Part shown: positions 3,032-18,122 of the stretch, in pieces
Layout: each line of letters opens with the position of its first letter
Position numbering within the stretch: position 1 is the stretch's first letter
Virus record (IMG/VR): IMGVR_UViG_3300030107_005950
Span: 1-36,264 of that record
Source: a virus
Direction: 5' to 3' (one strand)
DNA: 36,264 bases
Notes under the pieces: model-generated
Database searches by the model: none
Told to the model about the DNA's origin: nothing
What the model saw: the letters and a program-made list of their open reading frames with translations, nothing else
Translations under genes and position numbers: made by a program

Positions 3032-3757
3032 TCATTCATCTACGTCCAGTGCCAGTTTGTCGAGAGCTCTTCGGTACCGCTTCGGGTCTATCTCTGCGCC
3101 AACGTACCTTCTTCCTTGGCCTACTCGTTTAACAGCACGGCCGACTGTGCATAGCCCTGCGTATATGTCCAAGACCGTGTCTCCTGGTGAGCTCCACACT
3201 TCAATCATGTTTGCTTGGTAGCTGATCGGTTTCTCGCTGTGCTCTAGTGCTTCTCCACTCTTGCTGCCTCTGCCTCTGTGCTGCTCTGTGACGTGAGTGG
3301 AACGAAGTAGTTTAGTAGTTGTTGGCTTTGGCTTTCCCTTTCTGTACACCAGTATGGGCTCCGCGTTTCCTCTCCAATGAAAGCCGCTACCTGGGGCACC
3401 CGTCTTGGACCATGCTCCACCAGTCAGGTACTCCCACTGTATGTTCTCTGGAGTAGCCACTGCCATCCAGTCAGCCAGTAGCGGGAAGGTTGCCCACAGT
3501 ATTAGGTATGCGTCTGGAGCTGCACAGCTGTAGGCCTTCCGTACGTGGCCAACTATGTCCGCCATTGTCAGGCATGAATAGTGGCTTGCTGCGCTTCTTG
3601 TCTTGTCTCCACTGTTGCTGTACGTCCACGGTGGGTCACAGAATACCAGTCGAGCATCACGTACTTCATTGAGCAAATCATCTGCCGAGCTCAGGCGCAG
3701 GTCTATGTGGTCCGGTTTGCTGGGTGGCTCCACGCTTAGAAGCGACAGCTGCCTCAT
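3032..3757 (-). CDS. MT-A70 family DNA N6-adenine methyltransferase
   Basis: A 241-aa S-adenosylmethionine-dependent methyltransferase that would modify adenine in DNA. The catalytic DPPW motif is at residues 41-44, HSEKP at 173-177 (a conserved MT-A70 element), and the SAM-binding C-terminal segment LDIYAGLCTVG near 196-206 is followed by RYVGAEID. The start at 3757 makes an ATGA overlap with the 50-aa gene upstream; an ATG at 3826 would add 23 residues but overlap that gene more deeply. It is the last gene of a three-gene minus operon headed by a winged-helix protein. No cognate endonuclease is present, so self-protection from host restriction or regulation by methylation is likely. Confidence 0.92.
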   Translation of the reverse strand: MRQLSLLSVEPPSKPDHIDLRLSSADDLLNEVRDARLVFCDPPWTYSNSGDKTRSAASHYSCLTMADIVGHVRKAYSCAAPDAYLILWATFPLLADWMAVATPENIQWEYLTGGAWSKTGAPGSGFHWRGNAEPILVYRKGKPKPTTTKLLRSTHVTEQHRGRGSKSGEALEHSEKPISYQANMIEVWSSPGDTVLDIYAGLCTVGRAVKRVGQGRRYVGAEIDPKRYRRALDKLALDVDE

Positions 3758-3906
3758 GCTTTCTTGGGTTGTTTGGGTGGTGGGAGCGGCGGGTACTTCC
3801 TTCCCAGGTCGTTCCAATACTTCCACGGATCAAGATCGTGCTTTCGTCTGTCGTCTTCCCACTCTTTCCTTTCTGCGGATCGGCTTGTCGGTGCTTCGTC
3901 TGACAT
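3754..3906 (-). CDS. Small hypothetical protein, 50 aa
   Basis: A 50-aa highly charged protein with a Pro- and Lys-rich C-terminus (PPLPPPKQPKK). The ATG at 3906 overlaps the TAA of the winged-helix gene (TAATG), and its TGA overlaps the methyltransferase ATG (ATGA). Double translational coupling supports it as a real gene despite its size. A longer in-frame version from 3990 exists but would lie inside the upstream gene. I do not recognise the family. Confidence 0.6.
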   Translation of the reverse strand: MSDEAPTSRSAERKEWEDDRRKHDLDPWKYWNDLGRKYPPLPPPKQPKKA

Positions 3907-9617: not shown

Positions 9618-10184
9618 TCAGCCCCATTGCTGAGCCATTGCGTTGGCGATGCCTTGGAATGTGGTGCTCCGAATCTTCCAGCGGTCCTCACTCGGCGGCA
9701 GCTTAAGCAGCCATTGGTCGCGACCGGGAACGATGTCCGTGGGCTGCAATGGCCAGAGGTTGCGCAGCCATAGGCACGTGGCTTTGGTGGCACCGTGCCC
9801 GTGCTGCCATGGGTGTATGATTTGGGTGTACTTACGGCCGTGCAAGCGCTCGACTGCGTACCTGTGCGGGATGGGGTTCTCGATGCAGACGCGAGGGATA
9901 TCGCAGTCAAGCAGCCGGTTAAAAAAGTCGCATGCCTCATCCAACTGAGCCCAGCGTTCCGGGTCGCTGTGGAGCCATCGGACTCCTGCTTTGCTGATGT
10001 ACGTGCACGGTGGGTGTGCAATCATCAGGTCCCATCCATCGTCGATGATGTCGAGGACTGAACCTTGGTAGTGCGGACCCGGGGTGTCGGTCGGCAGTAG
10101 GTCGCAGGACATAGCGTCGTGACCCTTCGCAATGAAGGCATCACGCACGCGCCCGCTGTACTCGCATGCGACAAGCACGCGCAT
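9618..10184 (-). CDS. Compact DNA cytosine methyltransferase-like protein
   Basis: A 188-aa protein related to C5-cytosine methyltransferases. The N-terminus VLVACEYSGRVRDAF corresponds to the SAM-binding motif I, HPPCTYIS carries the catalytic Pro-Pro-Cys (residues 58-60), and IENPIPH matches the ENV motif VI (102-104). It is much shorter than bacterial enzymes (300 residues or more) and no separate target-recognition domain is visible, as in a compact phage-encoded branch of the family. The ATG at 10184 overlaps the preceding TGA, with GGGAGGTGA upstream; GTG at 10187 is the alternative. Protection from host restriction is the likely role. Confidence 0.85.
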   Translation of the reverse strand: MRVLVACEYSGRVRDAFIAKGHDAMSCDLLPTDTPGPHYQGSVLDIIDDGWDLMIAHPPCTYISKAGVRWLHSDPERWAQLDEACDFFNRLLDCDIPRVCIENPIPHRYAVERLHGRKYTQIIHPWQHGHGATKATCLWLRNLWPLQPTDIVPGRDQWLLKLPPSEDRWKIRSTTFQGIANAMAQQWG

Positions 10185-10585
10185 CACTCACCTCCCTTCA
10201 GTGGGGCGTTGAGAAAGTCGTGCATCAGCATTGCGCTGGGCCCGTCTTCCTCTTTCGCAGCCTGCGGATCGAAGCAGTTCTCACAGAGCCAATCCCATCC
10301 GCGTCCCAACTGCTCACCCGCGCGGACATGGACGCCGCAGCAATCGCACGGCCGGTACTCCTCCGCGTGGTCTTGGCACAGGTAGATCCCGTTGTTGTTC
10401 TCGAGCGTCGCCATCGCTCCGCATTGCTCGTGGTGTTCGCAGCGTTCCCCGTTGCCGAGGTGCTGCGCCGTCTGATTGTCGGCGTACAGAATGCGGAACC
10501 CGTTGTGGTGTGTTGGTCGTTTGGTTGTCATGGTCTTCTTGTGTTGGTGTTGTGTTGGTCGTTTCCAGTAGTAGCCATAGTTCAT
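10184..10585 (-). CDS. Zinc-binding small protein
   Basis: A 133-aa protein rich in Cys and His. Two probable zinc sites are visible: C49, H51/H52, C55 with C70 and H73, and C80, C82/C83 with C101 and C104. The second looks like a classical knuckle pair (CDCC and CENC). It starts at an ATGA overlap (10585) with GGAG six bases upstream. The acidic end (AKEEDG) and the Zn clusters suggest a protein-protein or nucleic-acid adaptor. It is in the early-type minus operon directly upstream of the cytosine methyltransferase. Confidence 0.65.
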   Translation of the reverse strand: MNYGYYWKRPTQHQHKKTMTTKRPTHHNGFRILYADNQTAQHLGNGERCEHHEQCGAMATLENNNGIYLCQDHAEEYRPCDCCGVHVRAGEQLGRGWDWLCENCFDPQAAKEEDGPSAMLMHDFLNAPLKGGE

Positions 10586-11240: not shown

Positions 11241-11617
11241 GGTGAAAAAGTGGAGCTACCTGAGTCCAGGAGGGACTGTCGGTAGCCATGAACCGTTAAA
11301 GCCATCGGAGACACGCACGGAAAGCGGTCCCCAGCGAGTGCCCCAGCGAGCGAAGCGAGTGGGTCGAGTGGGTCGCTTGCAGTGGGTGGCGTAGATGGCA
11401 GGTTCAGACATGGCGGACGGCAGGCCATCCGTGAGACAGAGGGTGGAGTACTGTCTCACCACTGTCTCGGGGACTGTCACGGGATACGTCAGCTGGTTTG
11501 TTGGTCAATGAGACAGTAGTGACAGTAGTGTAGAAGTATCTATATATTAGGAACTCTTGTCTCTCTTACAAAGCATACTGAGGATCAGGGTTATTCCTTT
11601 TGTTCGGATAGTCTATT

Positions 11618-11646
11618 TTGTTGTTTCCCCCAAACGTGAGTATAGG
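11618..11646 (+). promoter_or_regulatory. Possible promoter towards the terminase genes
   Basis: TTGTTG (11618-11623), a 17-bp spacer and TATAGG (11641-11646) form a moderate sigma70-like match inside the AT-rich core, directed at the terminase genes. Each box deviates from consensus, so this is tentative. Confidence 0.3.
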
Positions 11647-11710
11647 CTCAAAGTACTGTCACTTCTGTCTCACTGGGATTCTATTCGACCGACATGTCCC
11701 GTGACAGTGA

Positions 11711-11752
11711 ACTGAGACAGTACTGGTACAGTTCGTATCCTACTGTCTCAGT
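11711..11752. repeat. 12-bp perfect inverted repeat
   Basis: ACTGAGACAGTA (11711-11722) and TACTGTCTCAGT (11741-11752) are exact reverse complements separated by 18 bases. Each arm includes one copy of the 8-mer repeat. Confidence 0.9.
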
Positions 11753-11905
11753 ACAACACATCCGGGTCACTCCGGTCGGGAGCACCACAAAGCTTCAGCT
11801 GGCAACAACCCTATGTCCCACCATTGGCTTCGCCATATATTTCGCCCCCCAGTCAAAAAAACCGGACCAGTTGAAAACCCTTGTCACATTGACTACACTG
11901 AAAAC

Positions 11906-12553
11906 ATGAGCACAATGACCACAAAGCAGCGGTCTGGCAGACGAAACATGATTGCCAGGAGAATGATTGAAGACCCAGCGTCGCTGACGCGCCAGTACTA
12001 TGAGTCAGTAGCAGAGGACTACAACTGCAGCCTTCGCACTGTGTACCGAGATGTTGATTGGGTAGTAACGCAGCTCAAGCAAGGCTGGGTTCCGCCGCCC
12101 CCGCGCAAGAAAGTTGAGTCAGCTGTTCGTGGAAAGTTTGTAGAACACGGGGAGCAACAGTTCCCTGATCATCGTCTTGCTATTGAAGATGCTTTAGTTG
12201 ACGGTCGTTGGTCAAACCGGGAAGCTCAGCGCATTGATGATTCGTACGATGCAGGCGGAGTGCGCAAGGTCATTCGCGATGCGGAAGGGGTGAAGGGGGT
12301 CCTGCGTTCTGAGATGGATGCTGACGGTGTTCGCCTGAGCGTGTCGATTCAAATCAAGCGTTTGCACCGAACGGTTGCCCGTCACACTACTCTGCAGAAT
12401 GACGATATGGCATTGAAGGCAGAGGCTGAGCTAGCGAAGCTACACCGTGGTGTGATTCCGCTGCTTGGCAAAATGGACACATCCGAAGACATGTCGCCTG
12501 AAGAGAAGGAGTTCTACAAGCGGCTACTGGGGAGCTCTGGTGGTGATTCTTGA
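11906..12553 (+). CDS. terS: Putative terminase small subunit
   Basis: A 215-aa protein. Residues about 17-60 form a helix-turn-helix-like region (SVAEDYNCSLRTVYRDVDWV), followed by a Pro-rich linker and long charged helices to the C-terminus, the layout of many small terminases that bind the packaging site. The ATG at 11906 is preferred to the open frame at 11813, whose extra sequence is not protein-like. Its TGA overlaps the start of the large subunit (TTGA). Position and architecture support the call, but no family motif is decisive. Repeats lie directly upstream and are candidate binding sites. Confidence 0.7.
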   Translation: MSTMTTKQRSGRRNMIARRMIEDPASLTRQYYESVAEDYNCSLRTVYRDVDWVVTQLKQGWVPPPPRKKVESAVRGKFVEHGEQQFPDHRLAIEDALVDGRWSNREAQRIDDSYDAGGVRKVIRDAEGVKGVLRSEMDADGVRLSVSIQIKRLHRTVARHTTLQNDDMALKAEAELAKLHRGVIPLLGKMDTSEDMSPEEKEFYKRLLGSSGGDS

Positions 12554-14124
12554 CTGTGGACCGAATCACGGCAGCGCAGCAAGCGTTGTTAGATCCGCGT
12601 CGGTTTGTCAGGGTGTGCCAGATTCTTCGCGAGGACGAAGGCGTGGGGTTCCTGGACCCGACGTATGCGCAGCGGATGGTCTTGGATGCGATGGTCAACC
12701 ACCGATGGATAATGATTGGGAAGTACCGGCAGGCAAAGCAGACGACACTGGCGGTGATGTGGCTCCTGGGCCAAGTCATGTTCACTCGGGGGGTGAAGGG
12801 GGCCTTGGTTGCGGAGAAGCACGAGACTGCGGAGATGGCGTTCGAGCGTCTTCAGTTTGCGTATCGGGGGATACCGTCGAAGTTCCGCGTGGGTTCCAAG
12901 TCTGGCGGTGTTCGACATATTGAGTTTGACCATGGGGGGGGGATTCAGACACTGACGGGTGCTGGTCGAGCTCCGGCTGTTGGTCGGTCGATTGACCGCC
13001 TGGTGCTGACTGAGTACGGCGAATGGCCGCATCAGAGAGAAGCAGCGGCGCATTTGTTTCCGTCGATTAACAAGCGCCCGAATGCGCGGGTTGTCTTAGA
13101 GTCTACGTTTGGCAGAGCTGGGTCACAACACGAGCGCATGTGGAGGTCTGCCCTTGAGGGCAAGGGTCGGTTCCATGCTGTGTTCTTGGAGTGGTGGCGA
13201 GATTCGAGTTGTCTGCTACCTGTTCCAGCTGATTTCATTCCAACCAACGAAGAGCTGCGCTACCTGGAGCAGCATGAGGGAATGACCAACGGACACTTGA
13301 TGTTTCGTCGCCGGAGTCTGGACACGGAGTTCGCGGGTGACACGCGGCTGTTCAGGTCGAAGTACCCGTCTGATCCGTATGATGGGTGGCTTGGTTCTTT
13401 AGACCCAGTCATGCCAGAGGATGCTCTTCGTCAGCTGCTCACCGAGGCGGTTGCTGATCCTGAAGAGGGGGACTGGGGGAGCAACGAGCTCCAACCGCCC
13501 CGTCCCAATGGGGTCTACTTGATTACGGCAGACCCAGCTGGATACGGCGCAAAGGGTGACCCGAGTGCTCTGACGGTATGGGATGCCATTTCCAGAGAAG
13601 AGGTTGCGAACTGGTCGGGCAGAGAAGACCCTGGAAAGTTTGCTGACCGGCTGTGTAGAGTCCAAGCTCGGTATGGGAACTGCCTGCTTGCGGTCGAGTC
13701 GAACGCTGCGCACTGTATTGCGACGCTTCGAAGCTATGGGACACAGCGGCTGTTGTGGACGGACAAGTCTCACCCGGGTTGGTACAACACACGGAAGCGC
13801 CTCCAAGAAGCCGAGGCCCGGACGATTCAGTTGCTTCGCGAGGACGACCTTCGTATTCGCAGTCGCGCTACTCTGCATCAGATGCTGGACTACGATGGAA
13901 GAGCTCGCGATTCTAAGTCAAACGAAGGACATCACTTCGATCGTGCCGTCACTGTTGTCATGGCTGGTGACATTTTGTCCCGTCGTGCGTTTACTCCGAT
14001 TACACTGGCTGCGCAGGGGGAATCTACCCCAGCGGGCTATGTTAGCATCAGAGACCTGGATAACTATGGACGAGAAGAGGAAGCTGCTTTAGTTTCTCCG
14101 TTCATTCCACCGCCGAAGAGGTAA
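12550..14124 (+). CDS. terL: Terminase large subunit
   Basis: A 524-aa packaging ATPase-nuclease that pumps DNA into the prohead. The P-loop region is GKYRQAKQTT at residues 57-66 and deviates from the classical form (Ala-Lys-Gln in place of Gly-Lys-Ser/Thr). Walker B and the catalytic acid are in RLVLTEYGEW (150-159, E155). The nuclease half has ITADPA with D328, GDPSALTVWD, and HHFDRAV near 461. The length is normal. TTG at 12550 overlaps the preceding stop by four bases; GTG at 12556 is an alternative start. It is followed by the portal gene three bases later. Confidence 0.94.
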   Translation: MTVDRITAAQQALLDPRRFVRVCQILREDEGVGFLDPTYAQRMVLDAMVNHRWIMIGKYRQAKQTTLAVMWLLGQVMFTRGVKGALVAEKHETAEMAFERLQFAYRGIPSKFRVGSKSGGVRHIEFDHGGGIQTLTGAGRAPAVGRSIDRLVLTEYGEWPHQREAAAHLFPSINKRPNARVVLESTFGRAGSQHERMWRSALEGKGRFHAVFLEWWRDSSCLLPVPADFIPTNEELRYLEQHEGMTNGHLMFRRRSLDTEFAGDTRLFRSKYPSDPYDGWLGSLDPVMPEDALRQLLTEAVADPEEGDWGSNELQPPRPNGVYLITADPAGYGAKGDPSALTVWDAISREEVANWSGREDPGKFADRLCRVQARYGNCLLAVESNAAHCIATLRSYGTQRLLWTDKSHPGWYNTRKRLQEAEARTIQLLREDDLRIRSRATLHQMLDYDGRARDSKSNEGHHFDRAVTVVMAGDILSRRAFTPITLAAQGESTPAGYVSIRDLDNYGREEEAALVSPFIPPPKR

Positions 14125-14127
14125 AGA

Positions 14128-15807
14128 ATGCCGCGTGACATGAAGAATCTGATTGAGGCACACAAGAACTATTATGAGTCTCATGAGAAGCAGGCCTTTG
14201 ATAAGGCGCGAGCTCTGTACCGTGGGAAGCATTTCAATACGAGTACGGTTGAAAACCGGTACTTGTGCTCTGAAAACATGGTGTTCTCGATTGCTGAGTC
14301 TGCTATTTCGGCGATGCTGGGTCCAAACCCCCGGGTATCGGCCAAGGCTACCAGCAAAAAATCAGAGGACATGGCTCCATCCATCACTGCTTTTCTGGAT
14401 TGGTGCTTCCGTCAGACGCAGCTCCGCAAGCGGGCATCCTTGGCACTGACAGATGCGGTTCTTTGCAACCGTGGTGTGCTGAAAACGACCTGGTCGAAAG
14501 AGTCAGACATGCCCGTTGTGCGTTCTGTGGACCCTTCGATGCTGTTCTTCGACCTCTCTGTCCGCGATTCGGAAGACATTCGGTACTGGATGGAGTGCAC
14601 TGTTCTGTCGATCGACCAGTTCCGCCAGCGAGTAGACGCTGGGAAGTACAAAAAGGCAGGGGATGTCCACGCTGACACGTACCCGAAGTGGCTGGTGGGC
14701 CCAGATGCGGACGTGAACGACCAGAAAGTTCGCGAAGCTACCGATTGGGTGGAACTGTGGGAGATCTACGACGTAGAAGAGAGCAAGGTCTACCACTATG
14801 TGCCAAACGGGGACCGGATTGTCTTCGAGGACGACCTGTTGTACGTGCCGTACACGGTGTTTAGCCTGAATCACAACGGTATTGACGTGCGAGGACTGTC
14901 CGAAGTCCAGCTGATTCTGCCCCAACAGGAAAGCATCAACGAGATTCTGACGTTCTGGAACAAAGTCGTTCACCTTACAGTCCCACGGGTCCTGTATGAC
15001 GCGGGTATTGTAGCCGAAGAAGACCTCAGTGCGGCTGTAAGCTCCGCAGTGGGCGCGTTTGTGCCGATTCACACGGCCTCAGACATGCCAGGGGCGCTCC
15101 GAGAGGCTTTCTTTAGTGCACCTGTACCCGAGCTGCACGCGCAGGTCCTGGAGTTCCTAGGGAAGCAGGAGCAGATTGCGTCATTCGTGTCTGCACTGGC
15201 CGAAGCTGCCCGTGGTCAGGTCACTGGCGCCCGGACTGCGACCGAGCTTGCACTGATCGACGCGCAGCTCCGCACCAGATTGTCGAATCGGGTGGGTAAT
15301 CTGGCCGAAGCCATGCAGGATGTAGCCAAAAAGTGCGTATGGCTCTCTGCGAACTTCATGGAAACTGACCGTCAGGTCGAAATTGCAGGATCTTCCGAGT
15401 GGGTCAGCCTTACTGCGGCAGACCTTGCGTCGGCCGACGTTTACTTCGACATGATTGCGTACAACCCCATCTCATCCAACCCAGCTGTGGAGGCAGAGCT
15501 CTTTATCGGGCTGTTGAACGCACTGAAGGAGTCTCCAAACTTCGATCCGCGTGCGATTGACGAGTACCTGGTCGAGACAAACAACCTTCCAACGAAACTG
15601 CTCCGGCCGAAAGAGGAGGTTGAAGCTGAACAACAGGCGAAGGCTGATATGATGGCCGAGCAACAGATTGCAAACGAGACCATCGGCATGTCAGAGCAGA
15701 GTCCGTTGATGCCAGAGCAAGAGTCTATTGAAGCGAACGCGATGAAGGAAACGGAAGCGTACACGCCAGACGTTACTGAAACTCAACCCCCACCGCAGTT
15801 CTCCTGA
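14128..15807 (+). CDS. Portal protein
   Basis: A 559-aa head-tail connector forming the ring at the unique capsid vertex through which DNA passes. Features are a helical N-terminus, a central wing/stem region (SVDPSMLFFDLSVRDSEDIRYWME, about residues 132-155), a region YVPYTVFSLNH leading to LSEVQLILPQQESINEIL, and a long helical section with RGQVTGARTATELALID (about 363-379). The last 50 residues are acidic and Gln/Met-rich. AAGAGGTAAAG provides the ribosome site. Position immediately after terL is decisive. Confidence 0.92.
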   Translation: MPRDMKNLIEAHKNYYESHEKQAFDKARALYRGKHFNTSTVENRYLCSENMVFSIAESAISAMLGPNPRVSAKATSKKSEDMAPSITAFLDWCFRQTQLRKRASLALTDAVLCNRGVLKTTWSKESDMPVVRSVDPSMLFFDLSVRDSEDIRYWMECTVLSIDQFRQRVDAGKYKKAGDVHADTYPKWLVGPDADVNDQKVREATDWVELWEIYDVEESKVYHYVPNGDRIVFEDDLLYVPYTVFSLNHNGIDVRGLSEVQLILPQQESINEILTFWNKVVHLTVPRVLYDAGIVAEEDLSAAVSSAVGAFVPIHTASDMPGALREAFFSAPVPELHAQVLEFLGKQEQIASFVSALAEAARGQVTGARTATELALIDAQLRTRLSNRVGNLAEAMQDVAKKCVWLSANFMETDRQVEIAGSSEWVSLTAADLASADVYFDMIAYNPISSNPAVEAELFIGLLNALKESPNFDPRAIDEYLVETNNLPTKLLRPKEEVEAEQQAKADMMAEQQIANETIGMSEQSPLMPEQESIEANAMKETEAYTPDVTETQPPPQFS

Positions 15808-17404: not shown

Positions 17405-18122
17405 AGAAGCACCAACTACGGAACAGAATGGGAATGATGGGAACAGTGGTAGTGCTCCTTCGGACCCGCCTTCAGAGGTCAAAGAAGCGAGCACTTCGGC
17501 CTCTGAGGGCACTTCTGCTCCGGAGTCCTGGAATGGCGAGTTGGAAACTTTGGAGTCATCCGAGTGGTACAAGGCACTTCCAGAGCAGCACCGCGGATTG
17601 GTCAAGGAAGGACTGAAGTCAAAGCTGGGTAACTACGAGCGAGGATACCAGCAGAAGTTTCAAGACGTTGCGAAGCAGCGCGATCACCTAGAGAAGGAGA
17701 TCCGAGCTGAACGTGAGCGCATTCAAAACATGCTCTATGGTATGGACGACCCGACTAAGGACGTTCGCTCCGAGCTCGAGCGTGCAGTCAAGGACAAACA
17801 GGAACTTGAGACAAAGCTTGCAGAGATTCATAGGAAGCAAGAAGAGACTCGGGTTGATGAGATTGTTCAATGGGTTGAGCAGAACGCAAAGGATGTCTAT
17901 GAGTCTGATGCTGCATGGGACGCCTTTGTGAAGGCCAACCAAGCGGGCTTCAGCAAGGAAGACTCACTGAAGATGGCGTCAGCTCTTCTGGAGAAGAAGC
18001 CTGCGCCCCAGGTGCCGGATTCCATTGCGATGATGAACAACAACTCAGCGGCATCCGGAACTGAGAGCAAGAGCAACGACGATTATGAGACAGTTCGCCG
18101 ACGGCTGCTTGCACAAAGCTAG
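17370..18122 (+). CDS. Scaffolding protein
   Basis: A 250-aa protein with the typical scaffold layout: a Gln, Glu, Ser and Pro-rich disordered N-terminus (residues 1-55), an ESWNGELETLESSEWYK-type motif, then long coiled-coil helices (about 80-180, for example HLEKEIRAERERIQNML) and a basic C-terminus (YETVRRRLLAQ) of the kind that binds the coat protein. It is directly upstream of the capsid gene. AAGGAG lies six bases before the ATG. It should guide procapsid assembly and then leave. Confidence 0.82.
   Translation: MTQEQQGQQQSEEAPTTEQNGNDGNSGSAPSDPPSEVKEASTSASEGTSAPESWNGELETLESSEWYKALPEQHRGLVKEGLKSKLGNYERGYQQKFQDVAKQRDHLEKEIRAERERIQNMLYGMDDPTKDVRSELERAVKDKQELETKLAEIHRKQEETRVDEIVQWVEQNAKDVYESDAAWDAFVKANQAGFSKEDSLKMASALLEKKPAPQVPDSIAMMNNNSAASGTESKSNDDYETVRRRLLAQS

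Follow-up and report, generated by a model that had tools for sequence, protein, structure and literature searches.

Twelve mirror-arranged GACAGT sites beside the terminase genes of a phage contig form a candidate replication origin

Results

Genes and features around the repeat cluster

The window analysed here is a whole stretch of 36,264 bp (IMG/VR record IMGVR_UViG_3300030107_005950), and all motif counts cover both of its strands. Its main features are listed in Table 1. A non-coding cluster of short repeats lies between minus-strand genes on its left and the packaging genes on its right, where a presumed small terminase gene (terS), named by its position before the large terminase gene (terL), is followed by a gene for a P22-like portal protein. 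The 215-aa product of the presumed terS gave no Pfam, PHROG or NCBIfam match. On the other side, a gene for a large primase with ATPase motifs has its 3' end towards the cluster, which follows it after 3.1 kb (4.2 kb in the related contig L001), with the minus-strand genes in between. Rfam and tRNA scans gave no significant match in or near the element, and the DNA of the region did not match any annotated phage. Alignment of TerL against genome contigs likewise returned no named host.

Table 1. Coordinates of the features at and around the repeat element in the window
Feature	Position	Strand	Remarks
DNA methyltransferase gene	3032..3826	-	
Primase with Walker A/B ATPase, 913 aa	5609..8350	+	APTRSGKTKLC and AVILDDVEG; proposed origin-binding helicase-primase
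DNA methyltransferase gene	9618..10187	-	
Whole element	11431..11752	.	12 GACAGT-core sites, dyad around AT-rich core; candidate replication origin
Left arm, six sites	11431..11526		cores 11435(+), 11450(-), 11461(-), 11473(-), 11512(+), 11521(+)
Promoter-like GTGACA-N18-TATATT	11519..11548	+	-35 overlaps inner site; L001 and L003 have a similar sequence
AT-rich core	11527..11654	.	38% GC; conserved blocks GTATCTATAYATTAGGAA and TCCCCCAAACG
Right arm, mirror of left arm	11655..11752		cores 11655(-), 11664(-), 11703(+), 11716(+), 11727(+, degenerate), 11742(-)
terS promoter TTGAAA-N17-TACACT	11871..11899	+	6 nt before ATG; outside element
Presumed small terminase subunit, 215 aa	11906..12553	+	by position before TerL
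Large terminase subunit	12550..14124	+	phrog_5989, phrog_38
P22-like portal protein	14128..15807	+	PF16510, 2.6e-9

Clustering of the sites

The octamer GWGACAGT occurs ten times in the window, nine times within 11450-11749 and once at 18087. There are two near copies, GAGACAGA, one at 11433 and the other, in minus orientation, at 11664, and the twelfth site is a degenerate one, GGTACAGT, whose core reads TACAGT in the window and is a full GACAGT in the related contig L003. GACAGT clusters more strongly than any other hexamer in the window: 9 of its 25 copies in 36 kb fall inside the 320-bp cluster, against a background expectation of 0.14 (Poisson P ~6e-14). Thus, the nine exact and two near-exact copies counted in the preliminary description of this DNA hold up in a window-wide count, which also shows that the octamer is not frequent in coding DNA.

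A mirror-symmetric array around an AT-rich core

The preliminary description also placed the repeats, in both orientations, on the two sides of an AT-rich stretch, and the arrangement turns out to be two six-site arms around a core of 38% GC. Written by strand and spacing, the layout is + 15 - 11 - 12 - 39 + 9 + for the left arm, followed by the 128-bp core, and - 9 - 39 + 13 + 11 + 15 - for the right arm, so that sites are spaced by 9, 11, 12, 13, 15 and 39 bp. The whole array is mirror-symmetric about 11590.5-11591. The mid-points of the six mirrored pairs (11591.0, 11591.0, 11591.0, 11590.5, 11590.5 and 11590.5) agree within 0.5 bp, the two sites of each pair are oppositely oriented in 6 of 6 cases, and the left and right arms align to each other as inverted repeats. 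The core, which we presume to be the melting site, ranks among the most GC-poor 120-bp stretches of the window, whose overall GC content is 54%. The sign of the GC skew does not change at the element; for a short phage genome, this is neither support for bidirectional replication nor a strong argument against it. The conserved 18-mer GTATCTATAYATTAGGAA of the core alone also matches three contigs that have no DNA similarity to the window (L004, L006 and L007); a search for the repeat cluster found none in L004 and L006, and AT-rich words only in L007.

Conservation in related contigs

Close relatives of the terminase were found in three IMG/VR contigs, of which L001 and L002 are ~82% and L003 ~70% identical to the window in nucleotide sequence, and all three keep the repeats. 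The spacings in L001 and L002 are identical to those of the window (15, 11, 12, 39, 9, 134, 9, 39, 13, 11, 15), and those in L003 are 14, 11, 12, 39, 9, 124, 9, 39, 12, 11 and 15. In L003, the bases before the core are altered together in most sites, from GWGACAGT to WGACAGT. Judged from these alignments, the site positions and the common word appear to be under selection, more so than the surrounding sequence. The homology of the window to L001 and L002 sets in precisely at 11432, the left edge of the element, with different genes to the left, and continues into the packaging genes. The DNA at 11273-11430 is common to the window and L003, where it starts at 203, and is absent from L001 and L002; as a shift of one base separates the two open frames, this DNA may be non-coding or hold a gene in decay. 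In the distant relative L008, whose TerL is 25% identical, TGTGACA sites in both orientations flank AT-rich DNA at 1095-1361, ~2.4 kb upstream of the terminase, and this array is probably an equivalent origin with another motif.

Recurrence of the layout beside primase-helicase genes

A half-arm pattern consisting of two ACTGTC, a gap of 20-48 bp, and two GACAGW nine bp apart was scanned against 2.9 million viral contigs with no protein used in the search. It matched 20 stretches, compared with 2 for a control in which a shuffled hexamer was set in the same layout. One of the control matches (L041, 7818-8015) is itself a 12-site array of the control hexamer GTCAGA just 3' of a 751-aa ORF and is possibly another such origin; the control may therefore also catch real arrays with other motifs. 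After removal of the relatives of the window, 17 unrelated records remained, with GC contents from 44 to 71% and 6 to 16 sites each. A primase-helicase gene (D5_N/DUF5906/VapE) is adjacent in 12 of the 17, a count that includes helicases added by family searches of whole records, and no helicase was identified nearby in the other five. The large ORFs beside the clusters have D5_N, DUF5906, Pox_D5, VapE, Prim-Pol, RepB_primase or PriCT domains. The cluster lies 3' of the primase-helicase gene in all 12, usually at less than 100 bp; in 11 of them the distance ranges from a few bases to 0.6 kb, and in the twelfth it is 1.1 kb. A second pattern, made of the inner sites plus the core, added two more independent records, where the cluster is 71 and 2 bp 3' of a primase-helicase gene and the cores have 35 and 40% GC within contigs of 59% GC. 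The combined probability of such 3' placement is ~3e-13, a rough value that assumes random placement and independence. Since the pattern fixed GACAGT, the search does not show that this word is the usual motif of the helicase class. A scan of genome contigs with the pattern gave 10 matches, several of them by ordinary cellular genes, and was left out of the support. In two viral contigs (L012 and L013) and in Rhodovulum visakhapatnamense (L042), a GACAGT array adjoins ORFs without a Pfam match, and there the word may be recognised by another initiator.

Among ten isolated phages with related primase-helicase genes, an iteron-like array was found 3' of the gene in four, each with its own motif: AGGGACAT in Mycobacterium phage Ruthiejr, AACTATGCAT in Lactobacillus phage vB_Lga_AB1, AGTGCAC in Acinetobacter phage Alexa, and GGACAG in Rhizobium phage RR1-A, where the core is the same as in the window and the array is 1.9 kb from the gene. 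In the other six there was no clear array; Mano, Mica, ep3 and others with VapE/D5 primases have none within 3 kb 3' of the gene, and a 3' array is therefore not a universal rule.

The primase-helicase candidate of the window

PHROG 9765/256 primase/helicase matches to the 913-aa protein are confined to residues 65-198, and its ATPase half has no Pfam, NCBIfam or PDB family match. In a profile comparison with a combined D5/VapE alignment, the protein is collinear over the helicase core, with a weak score (probability 21% at best). PDB profile searches with TerS and the primase gave nothing credible, and alignment of the primase against the viral contigs returned only the known relative. An AlphaFold model built from a two-sequence alignment was unusable (pLDDT 33.5), because the protein has too few relatives. 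The identity of the initiator is thus a matter of inference, given the unmatched ATPase part, the weak D5/VapE profile similarity and the poor model, and we infer that the phage's own primase-helicase recognises GACAGT.

Discussion

Origins that combine iterons with a helicase gene are known from SaPIs and PICIs. The SaPI Rep and SCCmec Cch2 proteins are self-loading helicases whose C-terminal domain recognises iterons directly downstream of their own genes (PMC7581432). In PICIs, the origin consists of AT-rich DNA between two sets of iterons 3' of rep, and the rep-ori region of EcCICFT073 maintains a plasmid in E. coli DH5-alpha, for which rep is needed and which is reduced without ori (PMC6092414). 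In the CFT073 record, we found eleven GGTAGA sites, oriented both ways, after the gene of a D5_N/DUF5906 protein at the EcCICFT073 origin; several of the sites read GGTAGACAG, and spacings of 9 and 11 bp occur among them. These iterons contain GACAG, and this core is therefore common to the window sites and a functionally tested origin.

The window element resembles PICI origins in having two iteron sets in both orientations that flank AT-rich DNA and are placed 3' of a primase-helicase gene, and it has the GACAG core and the 9- and 11-bp spacings in common with EcCICFT073. Unlike them, it belongs to a phage that encodes its own capsid and terminase, forms an exact 6+6 mirror, adjoins terS, and lies 3.1 kb from the gene of the proposed initiator, whereas PICI/SaPI-type origins directly follow theirs. 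Short iterons downstream of a helicase gene are likewise common to the SaPI Rep and Cch2 origins, although the iteron sequences differ, Cch2 has only three iterons, and those elements are a satellite and a cassette rather than a phage (PMC7581432). The window element works, in our reading, like a PICI/SaPI-type origin, as a variant and not a strict member, because of its distance from the initiator gene and because the kinship of the initiator to D5 is weak by profile. In the ori/crr system of satellite phage P4, the alpha primase-helicase initiator acts on repeated short sites in both orientations, with a longer iteron and two separated sites; the likeness to the window element is one of general plan, namely a primase plus helicase type of initiator, as proposed for the window, and repeated short sites. 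SV40 and herpesvirus origins have mirror-arranged initiator sites around AT-rich DNA that serve two opposed helicase assemblies. These viruses are unrelated to the window phage, and the analogy is one of working only.

The preliminary description had offered two roles for the cluster, a packaging site or a replication origin. As a pac or cos site, the repeats would be bound by the 215-aa small terminase to start headful packaging. The element adjoins the presumed terS, 154 bp upstream in the window and at a similar distance in its relatives, across all four contigs; the homology with L001 and L002 covers the element and, from there, the packaging genes; and the phage has P22-like portal and terminase genes. 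Packaging, however, is directional, whereas the array, a mirror image in which the sites of all six pairs are opposed, lacks the asymmetry that a pac or cos site requires. The same layout is found beside replication helicases in unrelated phages, an AT-rich core is typical of origins, and terS is served by a separate conserved promoter that lies beyond the array. Given the symmetry of the element and its recurrence next to helicase genes, we consider a packaging site improbable. The small-terminase reading rests on proximity, and an origin and a pac site could overlap.

The position between divergent genes, minus-strand genes to the left and late genes to the right, would also suit operators through which a phage regulator controls divergent transcription, and the conserved promoter-like sequence at the left edge of the core overlaps one site. 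This reading is nevertheless improbable, considering that the promoter of terS (TTGAAA-N17-TACACT), which is conserved in L001 and L003 and from which terS seems to start leaderless, lies outside the array, that twelve sites in two distant mirrored arms with a 128-bp core exceed what operators need, and that elsewhere this layout accompanies helicase genes on their 3' side. In broad terms, two arms of short sites on either side of a core also resemble the geometry of attP. A role in partition or recombination, as for parS or the arm sites of attP, is the most improbable of these readings: the window proteins that were scanned, a part of the ORFs, included no integrase, ParA or ParB, and the association with helicases would be left unexplained.

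The origin part of the preliminary description fares better, being favoured by the architecture, the conservation, the recurrence 3' of unrelated primase-helicase genes and the plasmid-tested satellite origin. On these comparative grounds, the element is very probably the iteron replication origin of a bacterium-infecting phage, at which two helicase hexamers would be loaded. One hexamer would be gathered at each six-site arm, the two facing hexamers would melt the AT-rich core, and they would then load on opposite strands, giving replication in both directions. The 6+6 mirror suggests one site per helicase subunit. In a broader and tentative proposal, GACAGT might be a recurrent recognition word of primase-helicase initiators in many unrelated phages and satellites, and the family of the window might have its complete form, an exact six-per-arm mirror that would be the template for two opposed hexamers with one site per subunit.

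In summary, origins with iterons 3' of such helicases, known from SaPIs and PICIs, now have probable counterparts in phage contigs, among them that of the window phage, which carries a complete set of genes for packaging and the head. A simple DNA pattern finds such candidate origins without a protein search. The 6+6 mirror makes it directly testable how a double hexamer of self-loading helicases is assembled.
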